Assembly: GCA_017651465.1 (NCBI GenBank)
Contig: JAGCCX010000045.1
Coordinates: 28,363 to 92,362, forward strand
DNA length: 64,000 bases
Reading direction: 5' to 3'
Origin: Bacteroidales bacterium
GTDB taxonomy: Bacteria; Bacteroidota; Bacteroidia; Bacteroidales; UBA932
Position numbers and translations under genes: made by a program. Within the stretch, counting starts at the first letter, position 1. Every line of letters starts with the position of its first letter. The notes under the pieces are model-generated. The model did no database searches, had not been told where the DNA came from, and worked only from the letters and a program-made list of their open reading frames with translations. Positions 26,504 through 63,201 of the stretch are shown piece by piece.

Positions 26504-26650
26504 ATGATTAAAAACATTAAAACACCTGTTTCCGGGGGCTATACCGCCCCCTGGAGCGAGCTTCTGGAGACTCTTCCGGAAGAGATTCTGTGCGTCAGCG
26601 GCGATGGTGAAATCGATCCCGTCACTGAAGAAAGCTGGGGAACTTTTTAA
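26504..26650 (+). CDS. Small ORF of the Y-x-A-P family, 48 residues
   Basis: A 48-codon ORF starting MIKNIK, with GGYTAP at residues 11-16, an ILCVSGDGE stretch around Cys30, an acidic C-terminal third and a final WGTF. There is no signal peptide or membrane segment. It resembles the ORFs at 56879, 59909 and 63064 in its MIK start, (G/A)-Y-x-A-P motif, (I/L)-C-x-S motif, acidic tail and aromatic end. It has one Cys instead of two (Trp17 stands in the region of the first). The stop is 12 bases before the ATG of the next gene, a fimbrillin-like lipoprotein. Function unknown; short ORFs of this look are common but uncharacterised in Bacteroidales as far as I recall. Confidence 0.72.
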   Translation: MIKNIKTPVSGGYTAPWSELLETLPEEILCVSGDGEIDPVTEESWGTF

Positions 26651-26662
26651 TTGACTGAGGTT

Positions 26663-29146
26663 ATGAAAAAAGTATTCCGTACTATCGTTGTGCTGGCTGT
26701 AGCAGCCGTCGCAATGTCCGCCTGCAAAAAAGAAATGCAGGAAGCCCCTGTTGCCACCGGCATCAAGGTCGATTTCGTAGCCCAAAGCCTGGACACCAAA
26801 ACTGAGTTCGGTACCGCTTCCGGAAGCACGATTCCCGTGCTCTGGCAGGCCGGCGACAAAGTCACGGTAATGGTTAATCCCAAAACTACCAAGAATGGAG
26901 CTTCTACTGAGGTAACACCTTCATCTGATTTTAAGAAGGCTACATTTGAAGGTACAATACCCGATGGCCTGGAGGCTCCGTATAATTTCTATGTATTGTC
27001 TCCTTCTTCTCAATGGGTATCGGCGGGAACGAATGGAACATACGGCGAGTATATCCAATTTACTATTCCCACGGTTCAGAACCCTGTTTCCGGCAATATC
27101 GATCCTGAAGCCCAGGTTGTTTTAGCCCGGTCGGAAGAGTATCCCGATGCTCCTACAAGCTCAATACCTCTGAGCTTCAAGCATATGGCCGCTTATGGCG
27201 TGCTCTCCTTAGCAAATCTGAACACGGCAGGAAAGACGATTGAAAACATTACTCTTGAATTCGGAAGCCTGGGAATTGCCGGTAGATACATATACAAAAC
27301 TGCTGAAAATGAGGTGATTATCAACAATCCTTCCTCTTCTATCATCCTGAATACCAGCGAAACCGAGAATATTCATTTCGCCATCGGTCCCGCTGATATT
27401 TCCGGGATAACGATGAAGGTCAGTGTGGGTGTGAGTGACGGTAGTTATGAGCAAGAGGTAACAGTTCCCTCAGGTAAAGAATTCAAGACCGGGGTGATTT
27501 CACATTTCACAGTTGATATGAGCGGCGCTTCCTTCGTGAAGGCTAAGAGCTATGCTCTCGTAACCGATCTGTCAACTCTTTCTGTCGGGGACAAGCTTAT
27601 CATTGCCACCGTTAAAGAAGATTTCAATGTTGATAATGTCAAGGGCAAGGCTGCGATGAGTACCACTCAGAACACCCACAACCGCCAGGCAGTTCAGATA
27701 ACGGAATTCATGCAGGAAGGGAAGATCTACAACCCCAGTTCTTTGGTTGATGTATTTACCCTCGAGGCCAGTTCAATCAACGGAACGTGGTTGCTCAAGA
27801 GTTCAAATGATACTTACCTCGGCCGAAATGATGCTTCCGGCAGGTCTGGTAGCAACGATTTGCACGAATACACCGATTTATCCGCCACTGAGACCCTTAA
27901 CTGCTGCAGTTGGACTATTTCTTCCGAAGATTCTCAGACTTCAGCCGTTACACTCAAGTCCAACGCAACTGTAACCGACAGGGTTTATATCCGTGCAAAC
28001 ATTTCCGGCACTACTTATATCTTCTCTTGCTACAAGTCAGGTCAGAATCCTGTATGTCTGTATCGTGAGGAAGTGAGTGATACTCCCGAGCCCGAAAAGG
28101 AACTCACCGTGGAGCGCGTATGGGGCCTTTATCCCGCTGATTATCCTGCAGGCATCGGCATAGCCGAAGGCAATAGGGATCGTGCAGCTGCAATGGATGA
28201 GGAGAATGTTTATGTTGTCGAGGCCAATGTTACAAATTACGGTATCAAGGCGGTCAGCATTGCTGATCCTACCAAGGTAAAGAACGTCAATGTAACGGGA
28301 GTCGACGGCGGAACATTCAAGACTGCCTGCGTTCGTACAATCTACAGCACCACTCTGAAGAAGCATGTACTGCTTGCCTGTAGTCTTGTTACCGGATCCG
28401 GCGAAGCCTTTAAGATTTACTCTTGGGAGAACGGCATTGACAATGCCCCTACCGTTCAACTGACTTGGAATGTCGGAAATAACCGCAGGTTCGGTGATTT
28501 CTTTACCGTTACCGGCACCTGGGAAGACGGGCATATCTGGCTGAGGAACAACCAGCCCGATATGGATCACGACTGCAACCTCACGGCACAGTTCCCTATC
28601 AAGAACGGTGTGGTTACCCAGCAATGGCCCAATGCTTTCCGCAACGGCTACGGCGGTTCCAAGGGAGCGGGTTCCATTTATTTCTATCAGCACGGCACTG
28701 CGCCTTGTGTGCTGATTACCGACGCTATAGGTATGTTCTTCAATATCAATGACACAGCCGGCGAGGAATGGGGCAACGGCGATGATGTGAGCGCGTGGAA
28801 AAACATCTTCGGCATCACTCCTTTTGAATTCAATGGCGAGAAGTACATTGCATATCTTAAGATGTACAATTTAGCACGTGGATGGCTTACCATCATAAAG
28901 GATGTAAACGGAACGGCCTCCGGCTTCAAGGATACTCTCATCAAGGGCAAAGAAGCCGAAAACATTGTCTTCCAGGGTGCGGTTCAGCTTAACAGCGACA
29001 CGCCTTCCACCGATACTACCGGCACCGGTCAGTACTCAAATTTCACTTCCGGCAGCTGTTCAGTCATTGAAAAGGAAGACTGCGTTTTGATTATGGGACA
29101 TCAGCAGAATGTGGGCCTCGCCCTCTTCAAGATGTATATGAAATAG
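26663..29146 (+). CDS. Fimbrillin-like lipoprotein with DUF4623-like C-terminal domain
   Basis: 827 residues. Lipoprotein signal with Cys21 (VAAVAMSACKKE). The N-terminal module (about 30-300) is fimbrillin-like: TKTEFGTASGSTIPVLWQAGDKVTVM, then FEGTIPDGL and a hydrophobic YNFYVLSPSS. A central all-beta part follows (about 310-490). The C-terminal 330 residues (from VERVWGLYPADYP to the final QQNVGLALFKMYMK) align by eye with the end of the DUF1735-like lipoprotein at 39949; I recall this region as DUF4623. Likely displayed on the cell surface; no enzymatic motif seen. An open reading four codons earlier uses TTG; the ATG at 26663 keeps the 12-base gap seen in sister cassettes. Confidence 0.75.
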   Translation: MKKVFRTIVVLAVAAVAMSACKKEMQEAPVATGIKVDFVAQSLDTKTEFGTASGSTIPVLWQAGDKVTVMVNPKTTKNGASTEVTPSSDFKKATFEGTIPDGLEAPYNFYVLSPSSQWVSAGTNGTYGEYIQFTIPTVQNPVSGNIDPEAQVVLARSEEYPDAPTSSIPLSFKHMAAYGVLSLANLNTAGKTIENITLEFGSLGIAGRYIYKTAENEVIINNPSSSIILNTSETENIHFAIGPADISGITMKVSVGVSDGSYEQEVTVPSGKEFKTGVISHFTVDMSGASFVKAKSYALVTDLSTLSVGDKLIIATVKEDFNVDNVKGKAAMSTTQNTHNRQAVQITEFMQEGKIYNPSSLVDVFTLEASSINGTWLLKSSNDTYLGRNDASGRSGSNDLHEYTDLSATETLNCCSWTISSEDSQTSAVTLKSNATVTDRVYIRANISGTTYIFSCYKSGQNPVCLYREEVSDTPEPEKELTVERVWGLYPADYPAGIGIAEGNRDRAAAMDEENVYVVEANVTNYGIKAVSIADPTKVKNVNVTGVDGGTFKTACVRTIYSTTLKKHVLLACSLVTGSGEAFKIYSWENGIDNAPTVQLTWNVGNNRRFGDFFTVTGTWEDGHIWLRNNQPDMDHDCNLTAQFPIKNGVVTQQWPNAFRNGYGGSKGAGSIYFYQHGTAPCVLITDAIGMFFNINDTAGEEWGNGDDVSAWKNIFGITPFEFNGEKYIAYLKMYNLARGWLTIIKDVNGTASGFKDTLIKGKEAENIVFQGAVQLNSDTPSTDTTGTGQYSNFTSGSCSVIEKEDCVLIMGHQQNVGLALFKMYMK

Positions 29147-29170
29147 TTCCCTCCAACTATCCGACACATT

Positions 29171-29200
29171 TCAGGCCGCCTTCCGGGGCGGCCTGATTTG
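29171..29200 (+). terminator. Rho-independent terminator
   Basis: A perfect 10-base stem TCAGGCCGCC (29171-29180) with GGCGGCCTGA (29187-29196), then TTTG and TTT on the plus strand. It lies between convergent genes. The minus-strand side lacks a T run, so it mainly ends the 26663 transcript. Confidence 0.8.
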
Positions 29201-29201
29201 T

Positions 29202-31610
29202 TTATCTCAGGAAGAATCCTACCGTTGATTTAACTGCGCGGGAGTTGGAAGTCAATTCGCCGCTCCCTTTAACCTGCATCTGGGTGGAGCCACCACCGTC
29301 GAGGTTCATTGCGTAATCGCATCCGATGCCTTTCATCACCCGGGCCATTTGGGTCTGCGTTATGTTGCTTGTGACTACCACGAGGTAAACCTTTGCCGTG
29401 GAGGAATTGTAGCCGATTGCGGTCCTGGGCCGTGAAGAGCCGTAGATATTGCCGGAAGTGGTTTCCCAAAGCTCGTAATTGGTGTAATAGACACCTGTCT
29501 TGATTTTGTCTTCACTCACGCAGACCTTGCCGCCGTAAAGCAGCATAGGACCGGTGGAAAGTGCCTCAGAGGGGCTCCACGCCCTTGCCGGGCCGGGGCC
29601 GGAACTTGAAGAGGCCTGCGGATAAACTGCGGTTCCGGCAGGGATGGGACGGTCGAAGAAGTATGGCGTACCGTTCACCAGCGAGCACCAGTAGGCGCCG
29701 GGAGTCCCGGAAGCATCTACTCCAAGGATTGCGCGGGTAACGGGCTGCCAGGTAGTATAGCTGTTGCCGTACCCGCTGCAGGCGGAAATACCGTCGTCGG
29801 AAGAGTTGTTATACCGGAGATTTCCGCCGGTGTAGGCCAGACCTATGTTGCCCTGGCCTCCGAAAATCTGTCCGTTGATGAGTACAAGGGCACCGCTGCT
29901 GCTTAGCTGCGAGGCCATAGATATGGCGCTGGTAGTGCCCATCTTGGCATTGTTCACCCCGAGCTTGATGCCCGAAGAAGCGGAGCAAACAGCCTCTGCA
30001 GCGTACCCGTTATAAGAGCCTCCCGCCTTGAAACTGTACAGCGAAATGCCGCTGGCTGGAGACTGCAGCGCAGTCCTGCTGATAGAATAAGCTTCCGGCT
30101 GGCTGCCCAGGGTAAGGGTCTGGACGGGACTGTAAACGTAATTGCCGGCGGAATTGTCGAAGCAATACGCTCTCACGTAGCAAGTTTCTCCTATGCGCAG
30201 GCAGGCGTTTGGCACGCACTGCGAAAGAGACACCGTTCCGGTACTGTTGATCACCGGCCCGGGCAGTTTGCCCTCAGCTCCAGCCGACCCGCAGGTGGGG
30301 GAGGGGTTGCTGTAACTGAACACTAGTCCGTGTTCGGCACCGGTGGACGACAGGCCGCTGATCTTGTAGTTGACAATGAAATTGTAGTAGTTGGCGGCGG
30401 AACTCTCGACCGATACGTTCATATTGCTCACTGCGGCGTTTATGGTCACGTCTTCGAGCCAGGTGGTAGGGGAATCGCCGTATCCGGTCTCGCCATTACA
30501 CGCAGCACTCACGCCAAGGTCGTATGTCTTTCCGGTGGTGAGTCCCGAGAAGGTATAAGAATACTGACCGTACTGGCCTGAACCTGTGTTCTGCGATCCG
30601 ACCAGTTCTCCGGCTCCGGTCGATGCGGCGTCACGAAGGTAGAACTTGTAGGTGTCGCGCTTGCCTGAGGAGCAAGAGAAAGTAATCGAGGCCGAGGTGG
30701 GCGAAGCTTGTCCTCCGGAAGAAATAACGGGAGCGATGAGCTCGGTGCCGCTCTCGCTTTGGGGCCTGTCGTTTATGACCCCCCAGTCCTTGTCGGCCAG
30801 GATGATGTTTGCATTCCGCTTTATTTCAATACCTTTAGTGGAGGTGTAGCGGTTGTACATCTGGTCGGTATAGTATGTAAGGATGAACCCCTCCGAATAA
30901 TTGCCGGGGTACACTACGGCGTAGAATCGTTTGCCCCTGCTCTTCTGCGGGATGGTTACATCCACAAAATTCTTTGATGACGTTGAGGGGTGTACGGTGG
31001 GACTGCCGTCGTTGTAGTTTATAGTTGCCGGGCCGGTCATTGCAACTGTCCCGTCGCGGCTTTCGATACGGACGCGTGTAACCCAGTCGCCAGGGGCAAG
31101 AAAGGAGATCAGCGCCCCGGCGTTTTTGAAGTGAAGGATGTTATTGGCGTCCGCCGCCTGGGTATCGACGCGCGCCACCGAGAGATTGGCCGCCGGGTCG
31201 TAGCTGCCTGCGACACCTGTCTGGACGCTGGGCAGGGCAGCGAGCATCGTGCCGGAAGTGGAGACCAGCCGGGCGTCATCGGAAGCAGGGTACAGGGCAT
31301 AGTAATAACCGTTTGACGTTTCGTGGGACAGTCCGGTAAAGCTGGCCACGGTGCCGTCTTTTTCGGTTGAAGCTACGTTGAAGGTGGTCCCGGCCTGCCC
31401 GGTGGCGGCGAAAATGCTTACGGCATCGGAACTGCTCCAGTGTATGCTGTAGTCGGGGCCCAGAGTGGTCCTGGTGGCGCCGGAGGCCTCCTGCAGGCCC
31501 GTGAAAGTCATCTCTACGAGCTCTCCTGAAGAGCGCTCAAAGATTTCAGGATTCTGCGGAGTACAAGCGCAGACTCCGATTACCAGGAATAACAAGCGAT
31601 TGAATTTCAT
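29202..31610 (-). CDS. Fimbrillin-like lipoprotein with NAGPA-like phosphodiester glycosidase domain
   Basis: 802 residues. Lipoprotein signal MKFNRLLFLVIGVCACTPQ. The N-terminal module resembles the other cassette lipoproteins: TRTTLGPDYSIHWSSSDAVSIF, FTGL, YYYALYPAS. Middle: two fibronectin-III-like stretches (about 290-500). C-terminus: a phosphodiester glycosidase domain (NAGPA/DUF2233 type) with SGALVLINGQIF, RTAIGYNSSTAKVYLVVV and NLDGGGST beginning at 769, which holds the family's DGG-S-T core. Such domains cleave GlcNAc-1-phospho-sugar type bonds in the animal enzyme; the bacterial substrate is unknown. Last gene of the operon; a 49-codon ORF ends 12 bases upstream. Surface or periplasmic, lipid-anchored. 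Confidence 0.8.
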   Translation of the reverse strand: MKFNRLLFLVIGVCACTPQNPEIFERSSGELVEMTFTGLQEASGATRTTLGPDYSIHWSSSDAVSIFAATGQAGTTFNVASTEKDGTVASFTGLSHETSNGYYYALYPASDDARLVSTSGTMLAALPSVQTGVAGSYDPAANLSVARVDTQAADANNILHFKNAGALISFLAPGDWVTRVRIESRDGTVAMTGPATINYNDGSPTVHPSTSSKNFVDVTIPQKSRGKRFYAVVYPGNYSEGFILTYYTDQMYNRYTSTKGIEIKRNANIILADKDWGVINDRPQSESGTELIAPVISSGGQASPTSASITFSCSSGKRDTYKFYLRDAASTGAGELVGSQNTGSGQYGQYSYTFSGLTTGKTYDLGVSAACNGETGYGDSPTTWLEDVTINAAVSNMNVSVESSAANYYNFIVNYKISGLSSTGAEHGLVFSYSNPSPTCGSAGAEGKLPGPVINSTGTVSLSQCVPNACLRIGETCYVRAYCFDNSAGNYVYSPVQTLTLGSQPEAYSISRTALQSPASGISLYSFKAGGSYNGYAAEAVCSASSGIKLGVNNAKMGTTSAISMASQLSSSGALVLINGQIFGGQGNIGLAYTGGNLRYNNSSDDGISACSGYGNSYTTWQPVTRAILGVDASGTPGAYWCSLVNGTPYFFDRPIPAGTAVYPQASSSSGPGPARAWSPSEALSTGPMLLYGGKVCVSEDKIKTGVYYTNYELWETTSGNIYGSSRPRTAIGYNSSTAKVYLVVVTSNITQTQMARVMKGIGCDYAMNLDGGGSTQMQVKGSGELTSNSRAVKSTVGFFLR

Positions 31611-31622
31611 AGCAAAGTCCTC

Positions 31623-31772
31623 CTAAAAACCATCGTATTCTGTAGGGTCGTCGTACGTCTCGCCTGTGGGGCTTTGCGTAATCAAGAATCCGCACTCAAA
31701 GGTGCAGAGGCAGGCGTCGGGCGCCTGGTAGCAAGCAGCAGAGGTATCTGAATTCAAGTGCGGGTTTTTCAT
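31623..31772 (-). CDS. Small ORF of the Y-x-A-P family, 49 residues
   Basis: A 49-codon ORF starting MKNPHL, with CYQAPDAC at residues 14-21, further cysteines at 23 and 27, SPTG at 34-37 and an end DDPTEYDGF. Five cysteines in total, more than in its relatives. Y-x-A-P-x-(x)-C and S-P-x-G-x-T match the ORF at 56879, and the aromatic end matches the ORF at 26504. It fills an otherwise empty 188-base space between the regulator gene and the NAGPA-like lipoprotein, and its stop is exactly 12 bases before the lipoprotein ATG, with a purine-rich GAGGA just after the stop that could serve as ribosome-binding site for the next gene. No signal peptide. Confidence 0.68.
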   Translation of the reverse strand: MKNPHLNSDTSAACYQAPDACLCTFECGFLITQSPTGETYDDPTEYDGF

Positions 31773-31798
31773 ATCCTGGGTATCGAATATCCTTGCGT

Positions 31799-32824
31799 TC
31801 AAAAGGTGTTGCGATGAATCATCCTAAAGGTGCAGTGAATCTTTCGGGGCTGGCGGGAGAGTATCATTTCGGCGGCGAGCTGCCCCATAAGGCGGAAGTC
31901 CGTGGATACGGTGGTAAGCCCTCCGAGTATGAGTTCGTTCATATCGTACTCATTGTAAGAAATGATCTTTACATCGCTCCCTATTTGCAGTCCGGCTTTG
32001 CCGATGTTCTGCGCCAGCGTCACCAGGCCGGCGTCAAGCTGGGAATTCAGCACCAGGAATATATCTCCTTGGGCTACCGTTTCGGGCGCGGAAGTCAAAA
32101 ACTCGGCAGGGATGCCCCTCTCGCGGGCGAAGCGCTCGACACCGCGCCGTATGCACTCGCCGTACAGCGAAGAAGGAAGGGTGATGACACGCAGGCGCGA
32201 AGCCCTCCCGTAGTCTTTCCATCCTTCCGTGAGGCCGTAGTAGATATCATTTTCAAAGTCTTGATATACAGCGCTGTAGTTGCCGTTGATGCCGGGTTGG
32301 AGACGGTCCAGCATTATTAATTTACGGTTGGGTATCCGGTTCAGCTGCTTGACTGCTTTCTCCTGGGTCGCTTCGTCGAGAGGGAAGTGAGGGGTAACAA
32401 CGTAGTAATCGAAATTGTCCAAGTTGTTGTTGAGATAGAATTCGAGCAACTCCACGCTCTGGTTGTGGTTGACTATGGTTATGTCGGCCTCGTTTCCAAG
32501 ATGCTGGGCGAAAGCGTTGAAAAGTATCTGTTTATATACCGAATATTTGTCGAAAATGACGAGCACCTGCGGCCTGGTGCTGCCGTTTACATCGGCGGCG
32601 AAAAAGCCCTTGCCCTGTTTGGGCACAATTATACCCTTGTCGGTCAAGATCTTGTATGCCTTCTTGACCGTCTCCCGCGATATGCCGGACGAATCGGCCA
32701 GGTCGTTCATTGACGGGAGCTGCTCCCCGGCGGAAAGGCTTCCGTCGTGGAAGGCGCGTTCGACCTTGGATACCAATTGTTTGTAAATGGGCTCTTTGCT
32801 TGATTGGTCTACGTTAATTCGCAT
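31799..32824 (-). CDS. GntR-family regulator with LacI-type sugar-sensing domain
   Basis: 341 residues. Residues 1-75 are a GntR winged helix (EPIYKQLVSKVERAFHDGSLSAGEQLPSMNDLADSSGISRETVKKAYKILTDKGIIVPKQGKGFF). The remainder is a periplasmic-binding-like sensor with PQVLVIFDKYSVYKQIL, NRKLIMLDRLQPG, DIFLVLNSQLDAGLVTLAQ and DVKIISYNEYDMNELI. This hybrid, common in Bacteroidetes sugar loci, replaces the UTRA or FCD domain of classic GntR proteins. It lies inside the operon, 8 bases after the GH20 gene, so it probably senses a breakdown product of the locus's glycan and controls the operon. No outer-membrane signalling sigma factor is present. Confidence 0.87.
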   Translation of the reverse strand: MRINVDQSSKEPIYKQLVSKVERAFHDGSLSAGEQLPSMNDLADSSGISRETVKKAYKILTDKGIIVPKQGKGFFAADVNGSTRPQVLVIFDKYSVYKQILFNAFAQHLGNEADITIVNHNQSVELLEFYLNNNLDNFDYYVVTPHFPLDEATQEKAVKQLNRIPNRKLIMLDRLQPGINGNYSAVYQDFENDIYYGLTEGWKDYGRASRLRVITLPSSLYGECIRRGVERFARERGIPAEFLTSAPETVAQGDIFLVLNSQLDAGLVTLAQNIGKAGLQIGSDVKIISYNEYDMNELILGGLTTVSTDFRLMGQLAAEMILSRQPRKIHCTFRMIHRNTF

Positions 32825-32832
32825 ATTCTTTG

Positions 32833-34344
32833 TTATTCGTCGTCAACAATGATGGGAACTCCTTCAGGGGGGAAGCGCTGCATTCCGGAGCGTGCAAGGT
32901 CGGACTCGTTGTCCATATCGAAAGTCTTGTATCCTAGCGCTCTGAATGAATCGAGCAGCCTGCGCGCCCTCTTTCGGAATGCTTTGTATTCCTTGCGCCC
33001 GGCGGGGCTCCAGGCTGTCTCGGCCAGAGCGAAGAGCCTGGGGTAAAGCATATACTCGGCGTGCTCCGGAGTTGGTATGTACTCGCACCAGAGGTTGGCC
33101 TGCAGGCCTCGCACAAGGGCGGGATCCATTCCGTCGGCCACGGGCTCGTAGCCATAGGTGAACCGTAGCGATACCAACTCCCCGCAGGCAGCCGGTTCCT
33201 TGCGTATAAGGTCTTGATAGTAATTGTAATAGCAGTGAGTGTTGGGGGACATCACAACTTCTCTGCCGGCCTTGGAAGCATTGACTCCTCCGGCCGTGCC
33301 TCTCCAGCTCTGGATTACTGCGTCGGGAGATACTCCGGTCTCGAGTATCTCGTCCCATCCGATTATCCGTCGGCCGTGCCGGCGGACAAAGTCTTCGATG
33401 CGCCTGATCAGGTAGCCCTGGAGCTGCTTTACATCGGTATAGCCTTCACGGGCCATTCGGGCGCGGCATTTGGGACAGTCGTGCCAGGTGGTCATAGTGG
33501 CCTCGTCCCCGCCGATATGGATAAAAGGCGAGGGAAATATGTCCATCACCTCCGTCAATACTCCCTCAAGCAGGGTGAAAGTTTCTTCCGACCCAGGGCA
33601 CAGGTCCCAGGCGCCCCTGCAGCTTAGCCCTGATGAAGTAGTGCAGAGCACTTCGGGATAGGCGTATCCAACCTCCATACTGTGACCGGGCATCTCGATT
33701 TCAGGAATGACGGTTATGTAGCGCTGGGCTGCATATTCTACTATTTCCTTGAGTTCGGCCTTGGAGTAACAGCCTCCGGTGGCCTCCGGGGAGCCCTGGG
33801 TGGAGAACTTATATCCTCCCTTCTCCCAGGCAAAGTAGTCCCAGCCTATGCGCCAGGCGGTTTTGGCGGTAAGGTCGGGGTAGCTGTCGATCTGGATGCG
33901 CCAGCCTGCCGAGTCGTCGAGGTGCAGATGGAGCACGTTGAGCTTCAGCAGGGCCATTGCATCTATTTGCTTCTTGATGAACTCGACTCCTTTGAAGCTG
34001 CGGCTCTCGTCGAGCATAAGCCCCCGGTGCTTGAACCGGGGCCAGTCGGTGATGGTACAGCAGGGCAGGGGCGTACCCTCCAGGCGCATCTGCTCGAGGC
34101 TCTTGCGTGCGCGGAACTCGCCTTCGGGCGTTAGGGCTTCGATAACTATGCGTCCGGGTTTAACCGTAAGCCTGTAGGCTTCCTGCTGCTGAAAGGGCTC
34201 CAGGGCGGCCACGGTACGTTTAAAAGCACATTTGTTGAGCTTTACGCATATCTTGTCCCGTGTGCACACCCCTTGGGCGGGAGTGTACTCTGCCGGAATG
34301 GGAATTATCTGCAGCAGCAGGCAGGATAGGAGGAGGGCTATCAT
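32833..34344 (-). CDS. GH20 beta-N-acetylhexosaminidase
   Basis: 503 residues. A short hydrophobic N-terminus (MIALLLSCLLLQIIPIPAEYTP) suggests export, either by signal peptide or lipid anchoring at Cys8. A small GH20b domain precedes the TIM barrel, which has RGLMLDESRSFKGVEFIKKQIDAMALLKLNVLHLHLDDSAGWR and the catalytic pair Asp280-Glu281 in HIGGDEA. The downstream WDEILETG and a Trp-rich C-terminal part complete the sugar pocket. These enzymes remove terminal GlcNAc or GalNAc by substrate-assisted catalysis. It overlaps the preceding 1357-residue gene by 4 bases. Confidence 0.93.
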   Translation of the reverse strand: MIALLLSCLLLQIIPIPAEYTPAQGVCTRDKICVKLNKCAFKRTVAALEPFQQQEAYRLTVKPGRIVIEALTPEGEFRARKSLEQMRLEGTPLPCCTITDWPRFKHRGLMLDESRSFKGVEFIKKQIDAMALLKLNVLHLHLDDSAGWRIQIDSYPDLTAKTAWRIGWDYFAWEKGGYKFSTQGSPEATGGCYSKAELKEIVEYAAQRYITVIPEIEMPGHSMEVGYAYPEVLCTTSSGLSCRGAWDLCPGSEETFTLLEGVLTEVMDIFPSPFIHIGGDEATMTTWHDCPKCRARMAREGYTDVKQLQGYLIRRIEDFVRRHGRRIIGWDEILETGVSPDAVIQSWRGTAGGVNASKAGREVVMSPNTHCYYNYYQDLIRKEPAACGELVSLRFTYGYEPVADGMDPALVRGLQANLWCEYIPTPEHAEYMLYPRLFALAETAWSPAGRKEYKAFRKRARRLLDSFRALGYKTFDMDNESDLARSGMQRFPPEGVPIIVDDE

Positions 34345-55355: not shown

Positions 55356-55360
55356 GAACA

Positions 55361-55612: not shown

Positions 55613-55620
55613 CAAAGATA
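55613..55620 (-). promoter_or_regulatory. Candidate -7 box for rpsU
   Basis: TATCTTTG on the minus strand, 32 bases upstream of the rpsU ATG; no clear -33 element. Confidence 0.5.
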
Positions 55621-55632
55621 AAATATTTTTTT

Positions 55633-55640
55633 TATATTTG
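55633..55640 (+). promoter_or_regulatory. Candidate -7 box for the PHP-domain gene
   Basis: TATATTTG on the plus strand, 7 bases before an in-frame ATG at 55648 and 22 bases before the ATG at 55663. Only 12 bases separate it from the opposing rpsU -7 box. Confidence 0.5.
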
Positions 55641-55662
55641 TAGTCTAATGACACTAAAAAAA

Positions 55663-56859
55663 ATGAAAAGATTACTTGTTGTTGTCATTCTGACCCTTTT
55701 TGCATTCGGCTTAAATGCCACCGTGCCACATCGCTCGAGCATTCCGGATATCCCCGGATACATCACTCTCAAAGGCGATTTCCACATCCACACCAACTTC
55801 AGCGACGCCCAGGTCTGGCCCGTCACACGTGTTGACGAGGCCGATTTCGACGGTCTTGATTTCATCTCCATCACCGACCATCTCGACACCCATCACCAGC
55901 ATATGGCCAAGGACTGGGGCGCCAACGTCAACCGCAACACCTCTTACGAAATAGCTGCCCAGGCTGCCAAGAAGTACGGCATAATGGTTATTCACGGCGC
56001 CGAACTTACGCGCGGCACCCGCATCTTCCCCGGGCACTTCAATACCCATTTCATTTCGGACGCCGAGGCCATCTGCGCGGCGGCCGAGGCTTCTGACGGC
56101 AAATTCGGCTCCGACGAAGTAAAGAAGGAAGAGACCGCCATCTTGTCCGGCCTTGCCGAGGCCAGGAAGCAGGGGGCGTTCGTTACCTGGAACCATCCCG
56201 ACTGGGAGCAGCAGGCCCCCAACGAAACAAAATGGTGGCCCATCCACACCGAACTCCTGAACAAGGGGCTTATCCAGGGCATAGAGATTTATAACAGTTT
56301 CTCAGGCTTTGACCCCGAGGCCTTCCACTGGGCTATGGAAAAAGACCTGGCCATAACCACCGGTACCGATGCCCACAAGCCTATGTTCCAGTGGGTCGAT
56401 TACGAGAAGGGCGAGTACCGCCCTATGACCCTGGTGTTTGCCAAAGAACGCTCTCTCAAGGGTCTTCGCGAGGCTGTTGACGCCCGTCGTACCGTGGCTT
56501 TCGCGGACGGCTGCATTTACGGTAAAGAAGAATTCATCAAGCCTCTTCTCGATGCCTGCATCAGCATCAGTGGCGTCAAGTTCTCGGAGAAGAAAATGAC
56601 CGTCACGGTCAAGAACCTCAGCACCATTCCGGTGTGCCTCTCCAAGGCCCCGGGCAGCGAGATGGTGGTTTACAGCCGCCTGGTTCGTCTCAACGAGGGT
56701 GAGGAGATAAGTTTCACGGTCAACGGCATCGACAGCCGCAAACCCTGGAACGTTTATGATTTTGACATTAACTTCTATGTGACCAATTGGTTCACCGACA
56801 CCGACACTCCTCTCAAGTTGTCGTATCACGTAAGTGTGCCCGCCAAGTATCGCAAGTAA
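55663..56859 (+). CDS. Exported PHP-domain metallo-phosphoesterase-like protein
   Basis: 398 residues: signal peptide MKRLLVVVILTLFAFGLNA, then a PHP domain with the metal-binding pattern intact: GDFHIHTNFSDA, ISITDHLD, HGAELT, TWNHPD and TGTDAHKP. From about residue 290 a beta-sandwich (VKFSEKKMTVTVKNLSTIPVC) completes it. PHP enzymes hydrolyse phosphoesters with two or three metals; this one would act in the periplasm on an unknown substrate. An alternative start (MTLKKMKRL) at 55648 would make the mRNA leaderless. The next small ORF starts 19 bases after the stop, so they may be one transcript. Confidence 0.82.
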   Translation: MKRLLVVVILTLFAFGLNATVPHRSSIPDIPGYITLKGDFHIHTNFSDAQVWPVTRVDEADFDGLDFISITDHLDTHHQHMAKDWGANVNRNTSYEIAAQAAKKYGIMVIHGAELTRGTRIFPGHFNTHFISDAEAICAAAEASDGKFGSDEVKKEETAILSGLAEARKQGAFVTWNHPDWEQQAPNETKWWPIHTELLNKGLIQGIEIYNSFSGFDPEAFHWAMEKDLAITTGTDAHKPMFQWVDYEKGEYRPMTLVFAKERSLKGLREAVDARRTVAFADGCIYGKEEFIKPLLDACISISGVKFSEKKMTVTVKNLSTIPVCLSKAPGSEMVVYSRLVRLNEGEEISFTVNGIDSRKPWNVYDFDINFYVTNWFTDTDTPLKLSYHVSVPAKYRK

Positions 56860-56878
56860 CCATCAATCATAACAAACA

Positions 56879-57016
56879 ATGATCAAAAAATTAGTTCCGG
56901 GAGCTTACGTAGCTCCAGAATGTGATTTTGCAGAGGACTTCCCCCAGGGAATGATCTGTGAAAGTCCGGAAGGTATCACCGAGGATTTTGGTACCATTGA
57001 AGATTTTTCCTGGTAA
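56879..57016 (+). CDS. Small ORF of the Y-x-A-P family, 45 residues
   Basis: 45 codons starting MIKKLVPGAYVAPEC. Conserved with the ORFs at 59909 and 63064, which have the identical length: MI-x-K at 1-4, G8, Y10, A12-P13, C15, C27, S29, E35-D36-F37, F43 and W45 (last residue). The second half is strongly acidic. No signal peptide, no membrane segment. It starts 19 bases after the PHP-domain gene, and its stop is 12 bases before the ATG used for the next lipoprotein. Function unknown. Confidence 0.78.
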   Translation: MIKKLVPGAYVAPECDFAEDFPQGMICESPEGITEDFGTIEDFSW

Positions 57017-57028
57017 ATGAAGAGCCTT

Positions 57029-59839
57029 ATGAAAACAAAGTATTTTGCTTTAGCGGCGCTTGCATTTGCCGCGCTTGTCTCTTGTAACAAAGAGATTGCA
57101 CCTGTTGAACAGATTCCCGAGCCTTCCGTGCGCGATGGATATGTTCAGATTACTCTTTCCGCCGGTATCGACAACTCCACCAAGGCCGTACTTGACGGCA
57201 GCAAGGTAGTATGGGCTGTCGGTGAGGAGGTCGCCGTTTATCCCGGCGAGGCCACCACGGCAGAAAAGTTCACTGTTTCTAGTGTCGACGGAAGCAACGT
57301 CACCATTTCAGGATCGGTGCCTGAAGGTACCACCAGCCTGATTGCCGTGTATCCGTTTGATAATGCGATCAGTCGTGACGGCAGTTCGGTGAAATACAGA
57401 ATTCCCGACTCTCAGAACATTCCTGATGGCGGGACTATCGACCCTGTGGCGATGTCTTCCGCTGCGGTTTACACCGACTTGACCCAAACGGCACAGTTCA
57501 AAAACCTTTTCGCCCTCGTAGCGTTCAATGTGGGTAAAGCGAGCGATCTCAATATAGCCGGACTGATTGCCAATGACAACAAAGTCGCCGTTTCCGGTAA
57601 TGTTCATGCAGCCCTCTCCGCTGAGGCCGATCCCGTTATCACCGCTCCTGACGGAGAAGGATCGAACGGCGTTGAAGTGTTTGCCGAATCGGCTTTCACT
57701 CCCGATCAGACATACTATGCAGTTGTAGCCCCTTGTTCCGTTACCGGATTTACTGTGGGTGTGGGTAACGATAGTAAACAAGGTTCTGTTGCAACCGATA
57801 AGTCATTTGCCCTTGAGCGCAATAAAGGCCTTGACTTTGGCGACATCGCATCCAAGGTGGCAATGAAGTACAGCAAAATACACAATGCTGCCGAGCTTCA
57901 GGAATTCCTTGAAACTGCAGACACTTACCTCGAGAGCGACGAGGTGGCTCTTGCCAACGACATTGACCTGACAGGTGTTACGCTTACCGCCGCGGAATCC
58001 TGGGCCGGTACCTTTGACGGCGGCAGCTTCAAATTGAAGAACTGGACTTCGGCCGGCGTGCCTTTGTTTACAACCAGCCTGGGCACCGTTAAAGACTTCA
58101 CCGTCGACAGTTCGTGCAAACTCTCCTTCCCCAGTGAAGTCAGTGGTGCAATTGCATTTGTAGTGGCCAATAACAAAGGCACTGTGTCCGGTATCACCAA
58201 CAATGCCGACATTACCAGTACCGTGGATTTCAAAGGCGGACGTGTAGCCGTTATCGTAGGCGAGTGCAACGCTACTGACCTCGGCCACGGCATCACCGTG
58301 GAGAATTGTGTCAATAACGGTAACATAACGTTCAATACCGAGGCAAATCTCGGCGGTACACAGTATGTGGGTACCGTGGTCGGTTCTATGGGCAATTCCA
58401 CCGAGAATGTTCTGAAGGACTGCACCAACAATGGTAAACTCACTATCAACTGTACCGGCACCAACACTAAGAATTTCTACATCGGCGGCGTTGCGGGCGG
58501 AACCACGAATGGAAGCCAGAACATCAACGTCAAGAACACCGGAGACGTAACATTCTCCTGCGCAGGCCACGAAGCCGCTCTCTGCCTTGCCGGTATTTCC
58601 AGCTACACCACCGGATGCCTTACCAACTGCGAGAATACCGGAAAGATAACATTTACTTCCGGCGCCTCGCTCAAGGCAACCTTCGTTTCCGGCATTGCCG
58701 GTTATTTTGCCAGCAATACGATGTCCGGCTGCACCAACCGCGGCGACATTACCGTGACCGCCGCCCGTATCAACGGACGCAATGGCATCGGTGATATCAA
58801 CAGCAAGACTTATAATGGAACCAATGCCATAACTGCAGGTCTTACCGTTGGCGGCCTTGTGTCGGCTACCGGCAGGAATCCTGTATTCGAGAACAGCAAT
58901 AACTATGGCAAGGTCAGCCTTACTCTTAACAATCCGAGCAATGCTGACGGTACCCATACTGCAGCCCGTCCTTCTGTCGGCGGCCTCGTGGGTGACTGCG
59001 CCGGTCCAATGACCTCCTGCAACAACTATGGCGATGTGAAAGTAAGGCTCGGAAACGGCACCTCTTTCGTCCCCAAGAATGCAGGTTATACCTTCTACAT
59101 TGGCGGTATCGTGGGTTCGGGATACAACTTCAGCGGCGCAACTACCTCTGAAGGTACGGATACGAACAAACTTAACAACTTCTCTCTTACCAATTGCAAC
59201 AACAGCGGCAATCTTAATTACGAATCGGATAACAACCACACAACCAACAATGCCATCGGCGGCATCTGCGGTTGGCCGGGATCGGAGAACAAGACTACGC
59301 CTTACACTGCCACTAACTGCAGCAACTCCGGAAACGTAACCTTCAAGGGTGCCGGAGTCAGGATCCGCGCCGGCGGTGTGCACGGAGGTACCGGACGTAT
59401 GGTCGGATGTTCCAATATCGGAACGATTACAGTCGAGTCAGCTGAAGCAGGCTCTGTGGCAGGCAGCGTGGCTGCATTCCACAGCCAGGCCCACACATTC
59501 TCCAATTGCACGGCTGGCGGCAAGGTGGAGAACAAAGGCACCATCACAGCAATAGGCGGCCTCGTGGGCAACCTTGGCAACGTAGCATTCACCGGTATGG
59601 ACGGATGCTCGGTCAATTGTGCGCTCGTAGGCGGCCCTGAGGGTTGTACCGGTTTCGTTGTAGGTAAGTTCAACGGCACCTCCAATGCGATTACTCTCGG
59701 CTCCGAAGAAGATCCTATCGAGGTCCAGGGTACTGTTGACGGCACTGCTGTCAACGCCGAGACTGTTGCTGCGTATATATACGGCACCACCGGTTACGAA
59801 CCGGCCTCGCACATAGTGTACTACTCCTTCGGCGGCTAG
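57029..59839 (+). CDS. Fimbrillin-like lipoprotein with GLUG-like repeats
   Basis: 936 residues. Lipoprotein signal with Cys19 (AALAFAALVSCNKE). N-terminal module about 25-270: AVLDGSKVVWAVGEEVAVYPG, SVDGSNVTISGSVPEG, IAVYPFDNA. A DNDIDLTG-like bridge (ALANDIDLTGVTL, FDGGSFKLKNWTS) then leads to about 550 residues of short repeats of the type C-x-N-x-G-x-I, with GG-x-(V/A)-G turns (NCVNNGNITF, DCTNNGKLTI, GCTNRGDITV, NCNNSGNLNY, NCSNSGNVTF). These suggest a right-handed beta-helix stalk on the cell surface. Asn, Gly and Thr rich. The start at 57029 keeps the 12-base spacing; 57017 (abutting the small ORF stop) is also possible. Confidence 0.75.
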   Translation: MKTKYFALAALAFAALVSCNKEIAPVEQIPEPSVRDGYVQITLSAGIDNSTKAVLDGSKVVWAVGEEVAVYPGEATTAEKFTVSSVDGSNVTISGSVPEGTTSLIAVYPFDNAISRDGSSVKYRIPDSQNIPDGGTIDPVAMSSAAVYTDLTQTAQFKNLFALVAFNVGKASDLNIAGLIANDNKVAVSGNVHAALSAEADPVITAPDGEGSNGVEVFAESAFTPDQTYYAVVAPCSVTGFTVGVGNDSKQGSVATDKSFALERNKGLDFGDIASKVAMKYSKIHNAAELQEFLETADTYLESDEVALANDIDLTGVTLTAAESWAGTFDGGSFKLKNWTSAGVPLFTTSLGTVKDFTVDSSCKLSFPSEVSGAIAFVVANNKGTVSGITNNADITSTVDFKGGRVAVIVGECNATDLGHGITVENCVNNGNITFNTEANLGGTQYVGTVVGSMGNSTENVLKDCTNNGKLTINCTGTNTKNFYIGGVAGGTTNGSQNINVKNTGDVTFSCAGHEAALCLAGISSYTTGCLTNCENTGKITFTSGASLKATFVSGIAGYFASNTMSGCTNRGDITVTAARINGRNGIGDINSKTYNGTNAITAGLTVGGLVSATGRNPVFENSNNYGKVSLTLNNPSNADGTHTAARPSVGGLVGDCAGPMTSCNNYGDVKVRLGNGTSFVPKNAGYTFYIGGIVGSGYNFSGATTSEGTDTNKLNNFSLTNCNNSGNLNYESDNNHTTNNAIGGICGWPGSENKTTPYTATNCSNSGNVTFKGAGVRIRAGGVHGGTGRMVGCSNIGTITVESAEAGSVAGSVAAFHSQAHTFSNCTAGGKVENKGTITAIGGLVGNLGNVAFTGMDGCSVNCALVGGPEGCTGFVVGKFNGTSNAITLGSEEDPIEVQGTVDGTAVNAETVAAYIYGTTGYEPASHIVYYSFGG

Positions 59840-59872
59840 CCTAACAGCATCCTTAACGGGTGCCTTTACCGA

Positions 59873-59880
59873 TATTTTTG
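59873..59880 (+). promoter_or_regulatory. Weak candidate -7 box before the 59909 small ORF
   Basis: TATTTTTG in the 69-base gap between cassettes, 28 bases before the ORF. No -33 TTG. An imperfect hairpin (GCATCC...GGGTGC) precedes it and may partly terminate the upstream transcript. Confidence 0.3.
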
Positions 59881-59908
59881 AAAAACTAACTGAGACAAAA
59901 TTTAGATT

Positions 59909-60046
59909 ATGATAACTAAAGCATTAAACGGAGGCTACTTAGCTCCTTTTTGTGAAGTGGAAGAAGACACCACCGAGGGTGTCATCTGTGCAAGTCAAGA
60001 TGCCGTAATCGAGGATTTCGAAGACGGTGGAGAGTTTAACTGGTAA
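59909..60046 (+). CDS. Small ORF of the Y-x-A-P family, 45 residues
   Basis: 45 codons: MITKALNGGYLAPFC at the start, Cys15 and Cys27 (VICAS), IEDF at 34-37 and an EFNW end. Same length and same positions of all invariant residues as the ORFs at 56879 and 63064. Only about half of the other positions agree, so the shared residues are under constraint rather than a recent copy. Stop is 12 bases before the ATG of the following lipoprotein. Confidence 0.78.
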   Translation: MITKALNGGYLAPFCEVEEDTTEGVICASQDAVIEDFEDGGEFNW

Positions 60047-60058
60047 ACGCTGGAGACT

Positions 60059-62914
60059 ATGAAAAAGTTTTTTGTTTTTGCAGCGTTTGCCCTGGCCGCT
60101 GCTGTTTCCTGTACCAAGGAAATTGCACCCCAGCAAGAGTCCCAGGCCGTACCTGCCGGATTCAAGGAGTTGACCCTCAGGGCGGTTTGTGATGTGGAAT
60201 CCAAGGCATCCCTCGACGGAGTCAAAGTCGTGTGGGAAGTTGGCGAAGAAGTCGCCGTATATGCCGACGATGCTTCAAAGGCCCAAAAGTTTATCGTCGT
60301 CGCCGTGGACGGCAGTTCCGTAGTAATTAGCGGAACGGTTCCCGAGGGCGCCGCATCTTTTACGGCCGTCTATCCTTATGCAGCCGCCAAGGGCAACAAC
60401 TCTGGCGACGTTACCGTTTCGGTGAGCGGCGAGCAGAATGTGGGAGCCTCCGTCCTGGACAGTGAGGCTCTCGCTTCCGTCGCTTACTTCGAGAGCGCCG
60501 AGGCTCAAGGGAAATTCTGCAACGCAGTGGCCCTGCTTAAGTTTACCGTCGGCGTGGACGGTGTCAAGAAGGTTAAGTTCTCTCCTGACAACTCCGGTAA
60601 ACTCTCCGGAAACGAGCTGGTTTCCAAAGATGGCGAGAACCTCGTGATCGATGCCGGCAAACTGAAAGGGGAGTCCGTCGTGGTGAGCTGCGAGGGCGGT
60701 TTTGCAAAGAACACCCCTTATTACGCGGCTGTAATCCCCAGTGCGTACGACGGCTTCTACGCCAGTTGCTACACTCCTGACGGAATCAAGCTCCGCATCA
60801 GTGCAAACACCGGCACCTTCGCCCGAAATGCCATTGTTGATATGGGCAATGTTTCCGACGGCGCCCCTATGGTGGACGGTATTCGCAATGCCGAAGACCT
60901 TACCACCTTCCTCGACAATGCCTCCAGGTACGAAGAGACGGATGTGGTTAAGGTTTTGAACGATATCGACCTTACCGATGTCGTCATCTCCCAGGCCCTT
61001 TCTTTCAAGGGAACGCTTGACGGCCAGAACTACAGCTTCAAGAACTGGACTTCCGACGGCCACAGCTCGCTTATCCGCGCCTTGTGGGGCAAGATTGTCA
61101 ACCTGAAGATAGACCAGAGCTGCAACTTCAGCCTGCAGAACACCTATTCTTGCTACATCTGCGACACTGTCAAGTACACCGGCTCCCTTGAAGGCATCGT
61201 CAATAATGCCACGGCGCAGAAGTTTACCGACCAAATCTCCGGCCTGCATTTCGGATATCTTTGCCGTATCTCCTACGGACAGATGAAGGATTGTATCAAC
61301 AACGGAGATATCAACATCGATATTCCTGCAGCCACCGGCAATATCTGGGTAGGCGGCCTGGCGGCTTTCTTCAATTCCGGCACTGCCGACCGCGAGAAAG
61401 CCGGGCTCCCTATCGAGGGCGTGGTCAACTGCAAGAATACGGGTGATATCGATATTCAGATCGAGGGCACCTCAAAGCATATCTACCTGGGTGGAGTCGT
61501 CGGAGGAACAACTGCCGCCGCATATGCATCAAAGAGCAATCGCGGAGTTCTTGACGGGTGCGTCAACGAGGGATCTATCAGCTACAAGATTTCCACCAAC
61601 GGAGATGGCACTTACGCCAATGTCGGCGGAGTGACCGGTTTTGTGTTCGGAAGCATAAAGAACTGCACCAACCGTGGTGCGGTGTCTTACGAGAATGCTT
61701 ATGACGATGTCAATACTACCCGCCCTGCTGTGGGTGGCGTGGCTGCCTGCGTGTTGTATTCCGTCGAGGGCTGCAAGAACTATGGCGATGTGAGCATTAC
61801 CGGAACCTTCGGCGCCGCCGGTTCCCTGGCCCAGGGTGCCGGAATCCATACCAATCCTTCCTTCGGCGGCGTTGTCGGCCAGGCCGGCTGCAATACCAAT
61901 GCCGATGCCGACGAAGCCGGTGCTTACTTCAAGGACTGCGAGAATCACGGAAAGCTGGTCGCAAAGATCAATATGAAGGACACCAACAAGACCAACAATT
62001 TCGCCGGCGGAGTGGTAGGCTTTACCTGCGCTCCCGTCAGCGGCTGTCTGAACGACGGCGCAGTGGATGTGGTAACCAAGAGTTATTCTCCTTATGTGGC
62101 AGGCGTCGTGGGCAAGCTTTTCAATTCTGCGGAGGATTGTACTAATAAGGGCAATGTCGTGCTGGACGTGGTCCTGACTTCCGCCTCTGAGGCCAACCGC
62201 TCCTTAAGCAACAGTTTTGCCGGTGGCGTGGTAGGAGACCAGAATCAGGCCGGATTCTTGCTCAAGGGCCTTGTGAACACAGGTAATGTTGAGATGAAGG
62301 GCGGCTTCGGTTCAGTCCTTCGCTATACTGCAGGATGTGTGGGACGCTGCAACGCAAAGCTCAGTGAGATTTCCGGATGTACTAATTCGGGTTCCATCAA
62401 GGCTGCCACTTCGGCCGCCAACCGCGTAGGCGGAATAGGTGGAATGTTGAATACACTTGTCTTGAAAGACTGCCATAATACGGGTAATATCGAGGCGGTT
62501 ATGAATGACGCTCAGGCATCATCCGGCGGCTTCTCGGGATTCATTACCTGCGGTGGCGAGGGTATCGAGGTGTCCGGCAACTCTACTGCCGGCACTGTAT
62601 CCGCTTCCGGCGCACAGGGCTATTCCGCACTCTTCTGCGGCGGTATCGGCAACACCAGCCAGACCTGGGACGATTGCACCGTGGCCGGCTCTCTTACCGC
62701 TGCCGAGACTATCGGTGCCGGATATTTGCTGGGCGGTACTATAAACATCAAAGATAATTCCTCCTATGTCACCAATGTAGGAACCGTCAAGCCTTTCAAG
62801 ATTGCAAATGATGCCTCAATTAACGGTGTCACCATCTCGGCGGGAGATATCCCCGACAAGATGGCCGGTTACATCAATCCTGTTTATACAATTAACTGGA
62901 ATGTAGAGTTGTAG
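60059..62914 (+). CDS. Fimbrillin-like lipoprotein with GLUG-like repeats
   Basis: 951 residues. Lipoprotein signal with Cys18 (AAFALAAAVSCTKE). N-terminal module: ASLDGVKVVWEVGEEVAVYAD, AVDGSSVVISGTVPEG and an AVYPYAAA strand, closely related to the cassette before and after. Then KVLNDIDLTDVVI and a GLUG-like repeat region: DCINNGDINIDI, NCKNTGDIDIQI, GCVNEGSISYKI, NCTNRGAVSYEN, GCKNYGDVSIT, GCTNSGSIKAAT, DCHNTGNIEA, each near a GG-(V/I)-x-G turn. Ends in TINWNVEL. Predicted surface beta-helix protein; the ligand is unknown. Followed by a strong terminator. Confidence 0.75.
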   Translation: MKKFFVFAAFALAAAVSCTKEIAPQQESQAVPAGFKELTLRAVCDVESKASLDGVKVVWEVGEEVAVYADDASKAQKFIVVAVDGSSVVISGTVPEGAASFTAVYPYAAAKGNNSGDVTVSVSGEQNVGASVLDSEALASVAYFESAEAQGKFCNAVALLKFTVGVDGVKKVKFSPDNSGKLSGNELVSKDGENLVIDAGKLKGESVVVSCEGGFAKNTPYYAAVIPSAYDGFYASCYTPDGIKLRISANTGTFARNAIVDMGNVSDGAPMVDGIRNAEDLTTFLDNASRYEETDVVKVLNDIDLTDVVISQALSFKGTLDGQNYSFKNWTSDGHSSLIRALWGKIVNLKIDQSCNFSLQNTYSCYICDTVKYTGSLEGIVNNATAQKFTDQISGLHFGYLCRISYGQMKDCINNGDINIDIPAATGNIWVGGLAAFFNSGTADREKAGLPIEGVVNCKNTGDIDIQIEGTSKHIYLGGVVGGTTAAAYASKSNRGVLDGCVNEGSISYKISTNGDGTYANVGGVTGFVFGSIKNCTNRGAVSYENAYDDVNTTRPAVGGVAACVLYSVEGCKNYGDVSITGTFGAAGSLAQGAGIHTNPSFGGVVGQAGCNTNADADEAGAYFKDCENHGKLVAKINMKDTNKTNNFAGGVVGFTCAPVSGCLNDGAVDVVTKSYSPYVAGVVGKLFNSAEDCTNKGNVVLDVVLTSASEANRSLSNSFAGGVVGDQNQAGFLLKGLVNTGNVEMKGGFGSVLRYTAGCVGRCNAKLSEISGCTNSGSIKAATSAANRVGGIGGMLNTLVLKDCHNTGNIEAVMNDAQASSGGFSGFITCGGEGIEVSGNSTAGTVSASGAQGYSALFCGGIGNTSQTWDDCTVAGSLTAAETIGAGYLLGGTINIKDNSSYVTNVGTVKPFKIANDASINGVTISAGDIPDKMAGYINPVYTINWNVEL

Positions 62915-62939
62915 CTCATAGCTGTCAGATATCCATTTT

Positions 62940-62992
62940 CGGGAGGATAATTTGATGCCGGCAGGCAAATAATTATCCTCCCGATTTTTTTT
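62940..62992 (+). terminator. Rho-independent terminator after the second GLUG-like gene
   Basis: A perfect 13-base stem CGGGAGGATAATT (62940-62952) with AATTATCCTCCCG (62971-62983), then eight T residues. The T run overlaps the -33 element of the next promoter, so one cassette ends and the next begins in the same short span. Confidence 0.88.
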
Positions 62993-63019
62993 GTACTTGT
63001 TCAATTTTTTTTAATTTTG
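62990..63019 (+). promoter_or_regulatory. Promoter of the third cassette
   Basis: TTTG at 62990-62993 and TAATTTTG at 63012-63019 with an 18-base spacer, close to the Bacteroidetes pattern. The small ORF starts 45 bases after the -7 box. The leader carries no other obvious feature. Confidence 0.6.
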
Positions 63020-63063
63020 CAAATTGGCGAATACGATTTAACATCATTATTAACCATATCATT

Positions 63064-63201
63064 ATGATCAAAAAACCTTTGTTCGGAGCATACGCTGCTC
63101 CGGTATGTGAAACGGTAGAGAAGAGTCTCGCAGAGCTTCTGTGTGAAAGTCCCGATGCCAGTACCGAGGATTTCACCGAGCAAGAGTCTTTCGACTGGTA
63201 A
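63064..63201 (+). CDS. Small ORF of the Y-x-A-P family, 45 residues
   Basis: 45 codons: MIKKPLFGAYAAPVC, Cys15 and Cys27 (LLCESPD), TEDF at 34-37 and SFDW at the end. It has its own promoter here, so it is the first gene of its transcript. The stop is 13 bases before the ATG of the next lipoprotein, one more than in its sisters. Function unknown. Confidence 0.8.
   Translation: MIKKPLFGAYAAPVCETVEKSLAELLCESPDASTEDFTEQESFDW

Follow-up and report, generated by a model that had tools for sequence, protein, structure and literature searches.

Small open reading frames beside fimbrillin-module lipoprotein genes of Bacteroidales as probable precursors of LPP-like peptides

We analyzed a stretch of 64,000 nucleotides (hereafter the window) from the genome of a Bacteroidales bacterium of the UBA932 lineage (assembly GCA_017651465.1, contig JAGCCX010000045.1, positions 28,363 to 92,362 of the forward strand). 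It contains five small open reading frames (ORFs), each situated directly before the gene of a lipoprotein with a fimbrillin-like N-terminal module. Judging from sequence comparisons, we consider it probable (roughly 0.8) that these ORFs encode dispersed precursors of ribosomally synthesized and post-translationally modified peptides (RiPPs) similar to linear polyphosphorylated peptides (LPPs), and that the peptides act on the neighboring surface lipoprotein or are displayed with it. The dispersed precursors are probably matured by one shared enzyme set encoded elsewhere in the genome. LPPs are a RiPP family of Bacillota described in 2026; their gene set includes the SpI/SipW-like LppS, the discrete RiPP recognition element (RRE) LppB, the HprK-like kinase LppK, the nucleoside triphosphate (NTP) transferase LppN, and the MsbA-like LppD (Popov et al., PMC13381572). 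The small ORFs are best read as LPP-like because such a set of RRE, peptidase, kinase, exporter and NTP transferase, together with YxxP...S precursors, is what defines LPPs.

An earlier note on this DNA had listed the five ORFs, of 45–49 amino acids (aa), and all of them were confirmed with their positions and strands. ORF 1 (26504..26650, forward strand, 48 aa) has a predicted leader at 26504-26590 and a predicted core, beginning with C-V-S, at 26591-26647. ORF 2 (31623..31772, reverse strand, 49 aa) has a predicted leader at 31680-31772 and a predicted core T-Q-S... at 31626-31679. The other three are on the forward strand and encode 45 aa each: ORF 3 (56879..57016; predicted leader 56879-56956, predicted core C-E-S... 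56957-57013), ORF 4 (59909..60046; predicted leader 59909-59986, predicted core C-A-S... 59987-60043), and ORF 5 (63064..63201; predicted leader 63064-63141, predicted core C-E-S... 63142-63198). As the note had claimed, Y-x-A-P is found in all five, the last residue is aromatic (F, F, W, W, and W in ORFs 1–5), and the gaps to the lipoprotein ATG measure 12, 12, 12, 12, and 13 nt. No signal peptide of the small ORFs is visible by eye. The partner lipoproteins are encoded at 26663..29146 (forward), 29202..31610 (reverse), 57029..59839 (forward; an earlier in-frame ATG at 57017 is possible and would reduce the gap to 0 nt), 60059..62914 (forward), and 63215..64000 (forward; the gene continues beyond the window end). 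The claimed N-terminal module, of the PF13149 type and with the pattern T-K/R...W-x-x-G-D, is present in the partners. Among the C-terminal labels given to them, NAGPA (PF09992, partner of ORF 2) agrees with Pfam (1.4e-19), while for “DUF4623-like” and “GLUG-like” Pfam gave no match. The statement that SusD-like and other lipoproteins are not preceded by such an ORF holds, because the only profile matches in the contig are the five. An inverted repeat (cgggaggataat...attatcctcccg) with a run of T behind it lies between the fourth lipoprotein gene and ORF 5 (window 62939-62992) and looks by eye like a terminator.

The small ORFs are real coding sequences. The ratio of non-synonymous to synonymous substitution rates (dN/dS) is 0.24 across 16 pairs of close counterparts. 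For 11 gap-free pairs it equals 0.20 in frame vs 1.25 and 1.67 in the other frames, and the differences at codon positions 1, 2, and 3 number 49, 35, and 122. Thus the codon-level purifying selection by which the earlier note proposed to judge its claim was observed. Chance and a DNA-level repeat, considered as explanations of the likeness, are rejected by this frame-specific constraint.

The consensus of the family is approximately Y-x-[AS]-P-x-x-E-[VL]-[VLI]-E-[LV]-x-x-[EG]-G-[VIL]-[IL]-[CA]-x-S, or in short form Y-x-x-P-x(12)-[IL]-[CA]-x-S, in which Y, P, and S hardly vary. Of 60 sequences, 54 have a Y-to-S spacing of +19 and 3 one of +20 (6 of the 60 rows were dropped from profile A4; profile A5 comprises 46 hand-picked sequences). 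The serine is followed by a short, variable, acidic tail, frequently with W or F near its end, and the predicted core has 17–29 aa in the 34 own-genome members described below. In this respect the window ORFs look like leader-plus-core precursors, in which the first ~26–31 residues, including YxxP, would form the leader. We also considered the serine as the –1 residue of cleavage and dropped this option, since LppS cuts before A-Q-S (PMC13381572).

The window's own genome is a 2.5-Mb draft assembly. A profile built from the five window ORFs only (A1) found 20 matches in it. The 15 that are not in the window all precede a lipoprotein gene encoding the T-K/R...W-x-x-G-D module, at distances of –4 to +20 nt. 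A second-round profile of 20 sequences found 34 matches, and all 34 directly precede module lipoproteins; two of the partners of the 14 newcomers miss the lipobox pattern, with a lipobox visible by eye. Hence a profile search confirmed the proposed link between the small ORFs and the module beyond chance. The module is of the Mfa_like_1/fimbrillin-like type (PF13149): Pfam recognized 5 of 31 modules at E <= 1, the best at 9.6e-10. A profile of the module (A6, built from 31 of the 34 own-genome modules) found 85 matches in the own genome, 69 of them at E <= 1.2e-8, two of which share one frame. A small ORF is present for 41 of the 69, namely the 34 detected by profile and 7 extra ones detected upstream by motif. 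For four module lipoproteins without a small ORF (L254, L257, L265, L271) the preceding gene encodes a product whose acidic end contains W (e.g., DSTDWD, GSIWED) and resembles the tails of the small ORFs. Fifteen small ORFs scanned against Pfam and NCBIfam had no credible counterpart there (one chance match, 0.044), and among open PMC papers, judged on title and start of abstract, we found none reporting the family.

In the genus of the window, which is probably Candidatus Cryptobacteroides judging from named relatives of the kinase described below, 16 of 24 genomes have small-ORF matches at E <= 0.01; the same profile matched none of 16 genomes of other families. A wider profile matched 17 genomes at E <= 0.003 in a sample of 393 Bacteroidales genomes, which was also used for the PqqD and kinase searches below. 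A signal-peptide-type ORF lies within 60 nt in 89 of the 95 examined matches in relatives (27/28 + 62/67). L078 is the only one among the first 28 loci without it; two of these loci, L060 and L073, are identical copies within one genome. Among the 67 further matches, 54 fit the lipobox pattern; the five without a signal-peptide-type ORF in that range comprise the first member of each of three tandem pairs, the chimera L158, and L211, where the module frame begins 156 nt downstream of the small ORF. In the tandem pairs (L164, L174, L184) two family ORFs stand before a single lipoprotein, and in L164 and L174 the first of them overlaps the end of an upstream 425-aa lipoprotein gene. At L056 (G004:C70) a family ORF precedes a thioredoxin-like lipoprotein, not of the fimbrillin-module type, which we take to be Omp28-type.

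The gene order differs outside this genus. All five fetched members from genus g111 (G228, G302) precede lipoproteins. In genus g109 (G131, G300), 12 of 15 examined members are located 11–97 nt after the gene of a large surface protein, and in the 60 nt behind these 12 no ORF of >= 90 aa begins. For four of the large proteins the N-terminus was fetched, and by eye all four have a signal peptide. Ten C-termini share Y-x-L-x-G...G-x-x-I-x-x-G in an alignment; this is presumably a sorting domain of the type IX secretion system (T9SS) type, although Pfam and NCBIfam gave no sorting-domain match for the g109 neighbors and no library model confirmed it. Twelve further matches of the wider profile were inspected: members from G223, G041 (one of two), G331, and G079 precede lipoproteins; both from G043, one from G360, and one from G418 follow a protein gene; the second G041 match is at a contig end, and those from G226 and G332 fit neither order within 60 nt. 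The suggestion that the small protein goes with the module rather than with the cargo is thus strongly supported in the window's genus, but the tie is not absolute, as the partner in g109 and G043 is another kind of secreted protein.

Because the Y-x-x-P motif of the family resembles that of RRE-bound RiPP leaders, we searched for PqqD. A PqqD-type RRE (PF05402, above cut-off) is present in one copy in 10 of 11 tested genomes with the family. The single stand-alone RRE of the own genome (G000:C3:7398-7667) lies outside the window, in a block (G000:C3:6056-9304) that also encodes a putative HprK-like kinase, a signal-peptidase-like protein, and an ATP-binding cassette (ABC) exporter. In the PDB the RRE profile best matches TfuB1, a lasso peptide RRE (3e-5), and also matches LppB (9x8z, 0.016). 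Four of five invariant residues align with N33, Y60, V67, and D70 of LppB (nine aligned RREs, two of them partial; a chain numbering offset of 18 was derived in this analysis). These LppB residues contact the YxxP of the leader, lining the Tyr pocket and fixing the Pro kink (PMC13381572).

The other locus proteins were assigned with different certainty. One of the two peptidases scanned, that of L300, has TIGR02228 (archaeal-type signal peptidase I) as its best model (6.6e-6, below the model cut-off), and the own-genome copy matched no model; the family profile finds signal peptidase IB (2.7e-4) and SEC11A (7.8e-4) in the PDB, and the catalytic Ser and His are invariant (8/8). The kinase has a P-loop, SGTGKSTHS, that is invariant in profile A7, and its model scores are 3.8e-5 to 0.011 for HprK_rel_A and 4.3e-7 at best for ScmC, all far below cut-off. 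The exporter matches ABC_membrane (1.2e-30) and ABC_tran (2.2e-24), with the MsbA model ranking second of 194, below cut-off. An NTP_transf_5 protein (PF14907) is found in 11 of 12 genomes with the family and is inside the locus in some of them. Near another PqqD gene, at L331 (G051), there is a different YxxP small ORF of 53 aa, perhaps of a separate RiPP family.

We used the kinase as a marker of the RRE/peptidase/kinase/ABC locus. It is found in 36 of the 393 genomes: in 16 of the 17 with small-ORF matches (E <= 0.003) vs 20 of the 376 others (p 1e-17). After removal of the six genomes that donated sequences to the profile the ratio is 10/11 vs 20/376 (p 2e-11), and by family label it is 9/9 vs 7/~107, the number of labels being taken from the highest label seen. 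The locus and the small ORFs are also physically joined. A scan of named genome contigs kept 80 kinase loci of at least 541 relatives, together with flanks of up to 10 kb. A small-ORF profile built from dispersed members found 10 ORFs in these 80 loci at E <= 0.05 and none in reversed DNA; nine of the ten are no farther than 4.5 kb from the kinase gene, the remaining one (L360) lies 9.5 kb away, and eight of the ten are followed by a lipoprotein gene. In L376, L379, L381, L382, L384, L395, L396, L400, and G352 a small ORF is flanked by a locus gene on one side and a lipoprotein gene on the other. The flanking locus gene is the NTP transferase gene by profile in six cases and by size and likeness in L376, and the ABC gene in L395. 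The module profile recognizes eight of these nine lipoproteins (5.7e-10 or better) but not the L395 one. The eight have no PF13149 match in Pfam, so that their link rests on the module profile. At L404, from Paraprevotella xylaniphila YIT 11841, the kinase, peptidase, and RRE are present, with no small ORF seen next to them. We infer that in the window's genus the precursor–lipoprotein pair was multiplied and dispersed, in contrast to the union at the locus elsewhere. At L374 a small ORF beside an HprK-like gene is directly followed by the gene of a 662-aa secreted protein that by eye is ubiquitin-like behind the signal peptide (MQLFV...LEDGKTLSDYNIQ).

The LPP system has been studied biochemically, and if its homologues here work alike, maturation may proceed as follows. 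The only stand-alone RRE of the genome would bind the Y-x-x-P of the leader, and the SipW-like signal-peptidase homologue encoded beside this RRE would cut the leader off just before [CA]-x-S. The HprK-like kinase would phosphorylate the invariant serine, which is core residue 3; the NTP_transf_5 enzyme may decorate the peptide, and the MsbA-like ABC protein would export the short acidic product. The mature peptide would then act on, or be displayed with, the adjoining fimbrillin-module lipoprotein, a surface role suggested by gene linkage.

If the peptide works together with its partner, the core is the part expected to follow it. In the 34 own-genome pairs, similar cores tend to go with similar modules (Mantel r 0.25, p 0.001; r 0.20, p 0.004 with two tandem copies left out), and no such correlation is seen for the leaders (r –0.09, p 0.95). 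With shuffle correction and the core taken after the serine, r is 0.18 (p 0.002), 0.14 (p 0.012) without the two tandem copies, and 0.18 (p 0.007) with more close pairs removed. The core and not the leader thus appears to track the lipoprotein, weakly but on the expected side. In the chimera L158 (G023:C15) the last 16 residues are identical to those of window ORF 4 (59909), the leader has diverged, and no lipoprotein lies within 60 nt; this suggests recombination near the leader/core border. A further-reaching version, which we put forward only tentatively, is genome-wide peptide display: one RRE/peptidase/kinase/exporter locus would mature dozens of dispersed, partner-specific phosphopeptides, and each acidic product would bind to, or be joined with, its own surface protein, fimbrillin-like or of another secreted kind, as an obligatory second subunit or cap.

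A number of observations weigh against an LPP-like nature of the family. The published work calls LPPs restricted to Bacillota (PMC13381572). PqqD by itself is common, being present in 242 of the 393 Bacteroidales genomes (16/17 with the family vs 226/376 others). The HprK-like kinase is the weakest assignment among the locus proteins: its PDB matches are phosphoenolpyruvate carboxykinase and ABC P-loops, with no HPr kinase. Twenty of the 36 genomes with the kinase have no small ORF at the threshold, and within the genus the kinase is present in 14 of 17 genomes with matches vs 5 of 8 without, and therefore does not discriminate. In the own genome no precursor was found near the locus, and the NTP transferase gene sits on a separate contig. 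In G300, which is 89% complete and has six small-ORF matches, the RRE, kinase, and NTP transferase were not found. Twenty-eight of the 69 module matches are without a small ORF, about 15 of them coming directly after a same-strand gene. The Cys of C-x-S is replaced by Ala or another residue in some members, some locus-side members (e.g., L379) have no Ser at the expected position, and the correlation of core and module is weak (r 0.14–0.25).

Several alternatives share part of this evidence. The same maturation might serve an ordinary secreted LPP-type RiPP, a bacteriocin or a signal, for which the lipoprotein is merely the receptor or an immunity protein. The RRE, peptidase, kinase, and ABC evidence fits this equally well, as do the variable cores and the precursor–lipoprotein pairing with weak core–module covariation; on the other hand, some 41 precursors in one genome would be unusual for bacteriocin systems, as would partners whose C-terminal parts are large and unrelated (NAGPA, for example), and we regard such a role as possible but rather doubtful. 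The peptide could also be a cytoplasmic assembly or targeting cofactor of the lipoprotein that is never processed or exported. This agrees with the lack of a visible signal peptide and with the strict linkage to surface protein genes, but it leaves both the association with the RRE locus and the LPP-like architecture from YxxP to Ser unexplained, which makes it very unlikely.

An even smaller chance is given to a cis-acting leader ORF, whose translation would control or couple that of the lipoprotein while the peptide itself is inert. There is one ORF per lipoprotein, the gap is short or even negative (about –23 to +25 nt, varying with the assumed start), and in-frame conservation is also compatible with an arrest peptide. 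However, the members of g109, G043, G360, and G418 that come after a protein gene do not fit this explanation, nor does the co-occurrence and physical union of the family with the RRE locus. The window has no Rfam match, which likewise speaks against it and by which a known RNA element was rejected. Out of a secreted peptide, an assembly cofactor, and a translational control ORF, which the earlier note had offered side by side, the secreted peptide comes closest, and translational control is disfavored because of the position of the g109 and G043 members. Lasso peptide precursors hardly come into consideration: the YxxP leader and the PqqD-type RRE, with a lasso RRE as the best PDB match, would suit them, yet the B2 leader peptidase (PF13471) was found in none of 12 genomes with the family, no cyclase was noticed among the listed locus genes (no genome-wide cyclase search was made), and the leader-to-core spacing is longer than that of lasso leaders. 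Dispersed LPP-like precursors of surface-acting peptides remain our preferred explanation.

If it is true, the LPP kind extends from Bacillota to Bacteroidales, and the kinase/peptidase/RRE locus found in 36 of the 393 sampled genomes obtains proposed substrates. LPPs were described without a known biological role (PMC13381572). The strict pairing of precursor and surface protein genes gives a clue to the role of an LPP-like peptide, namely action at the cell surface, and many natural precursor–partner pairs are on offer for study.

Known systems resemble this one in different parts. The N-terminal module of the partner lipoproteins is shared with Mfa/FimA-type fimbrillins (PF13149), but here it is followed by unrelated cargo parts, and we know of no small partner ORF of these fimbrillins. 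In prochlorosin-type systems many variable precursors are likewise served in trans by few enzymes; the enzyme class is another one, and the precursors are not known to be linked to surface lipoprotein genes. Paeninodin-type lasso systems have a YxxP/WxxP leader, a discrete RRE, an NTP transferase, an ABC exporter, and putatively an HprK-like kinase in common with the Bacteroidales system, which differs in having a signal-peptidase-like enzyme, with no B2 found in 12 genomes and no cyclase noticed at the locus. The closest system is that of LPPs. The phylum is different (Bacillota vs Bacteroidota), an LPP cluster has 1–3 precursors vs ~41 dispersed ones in the own genome, and the precursors here accompany fimbrillin-like lipoproteins or secreted proteins of another kind. 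The LPP precursor motif is YxxPxVLxHQxIxFETxxS, with the cut after FET and polyphosphorylation of S3 of A-Q-S (PMC13381572). HQ and FET are absent from the Bacteroidales motif, the Y-to-S distance is +18 in LPPs and +19 here, and the studied LppA core has 45 aa, in contrast to the short acidic cores here. At the same time, the core start A-Q-S fits [CA]-x-S, both kinds of precursors combine a conserved YxxP...S N-terminal part with a variable C-terminus, and both systems have a SipW-like peptidase, a discrete RRE, an NTP transferase, an MsbA-like exporter, and, putatively here, an HprK-like kinase.

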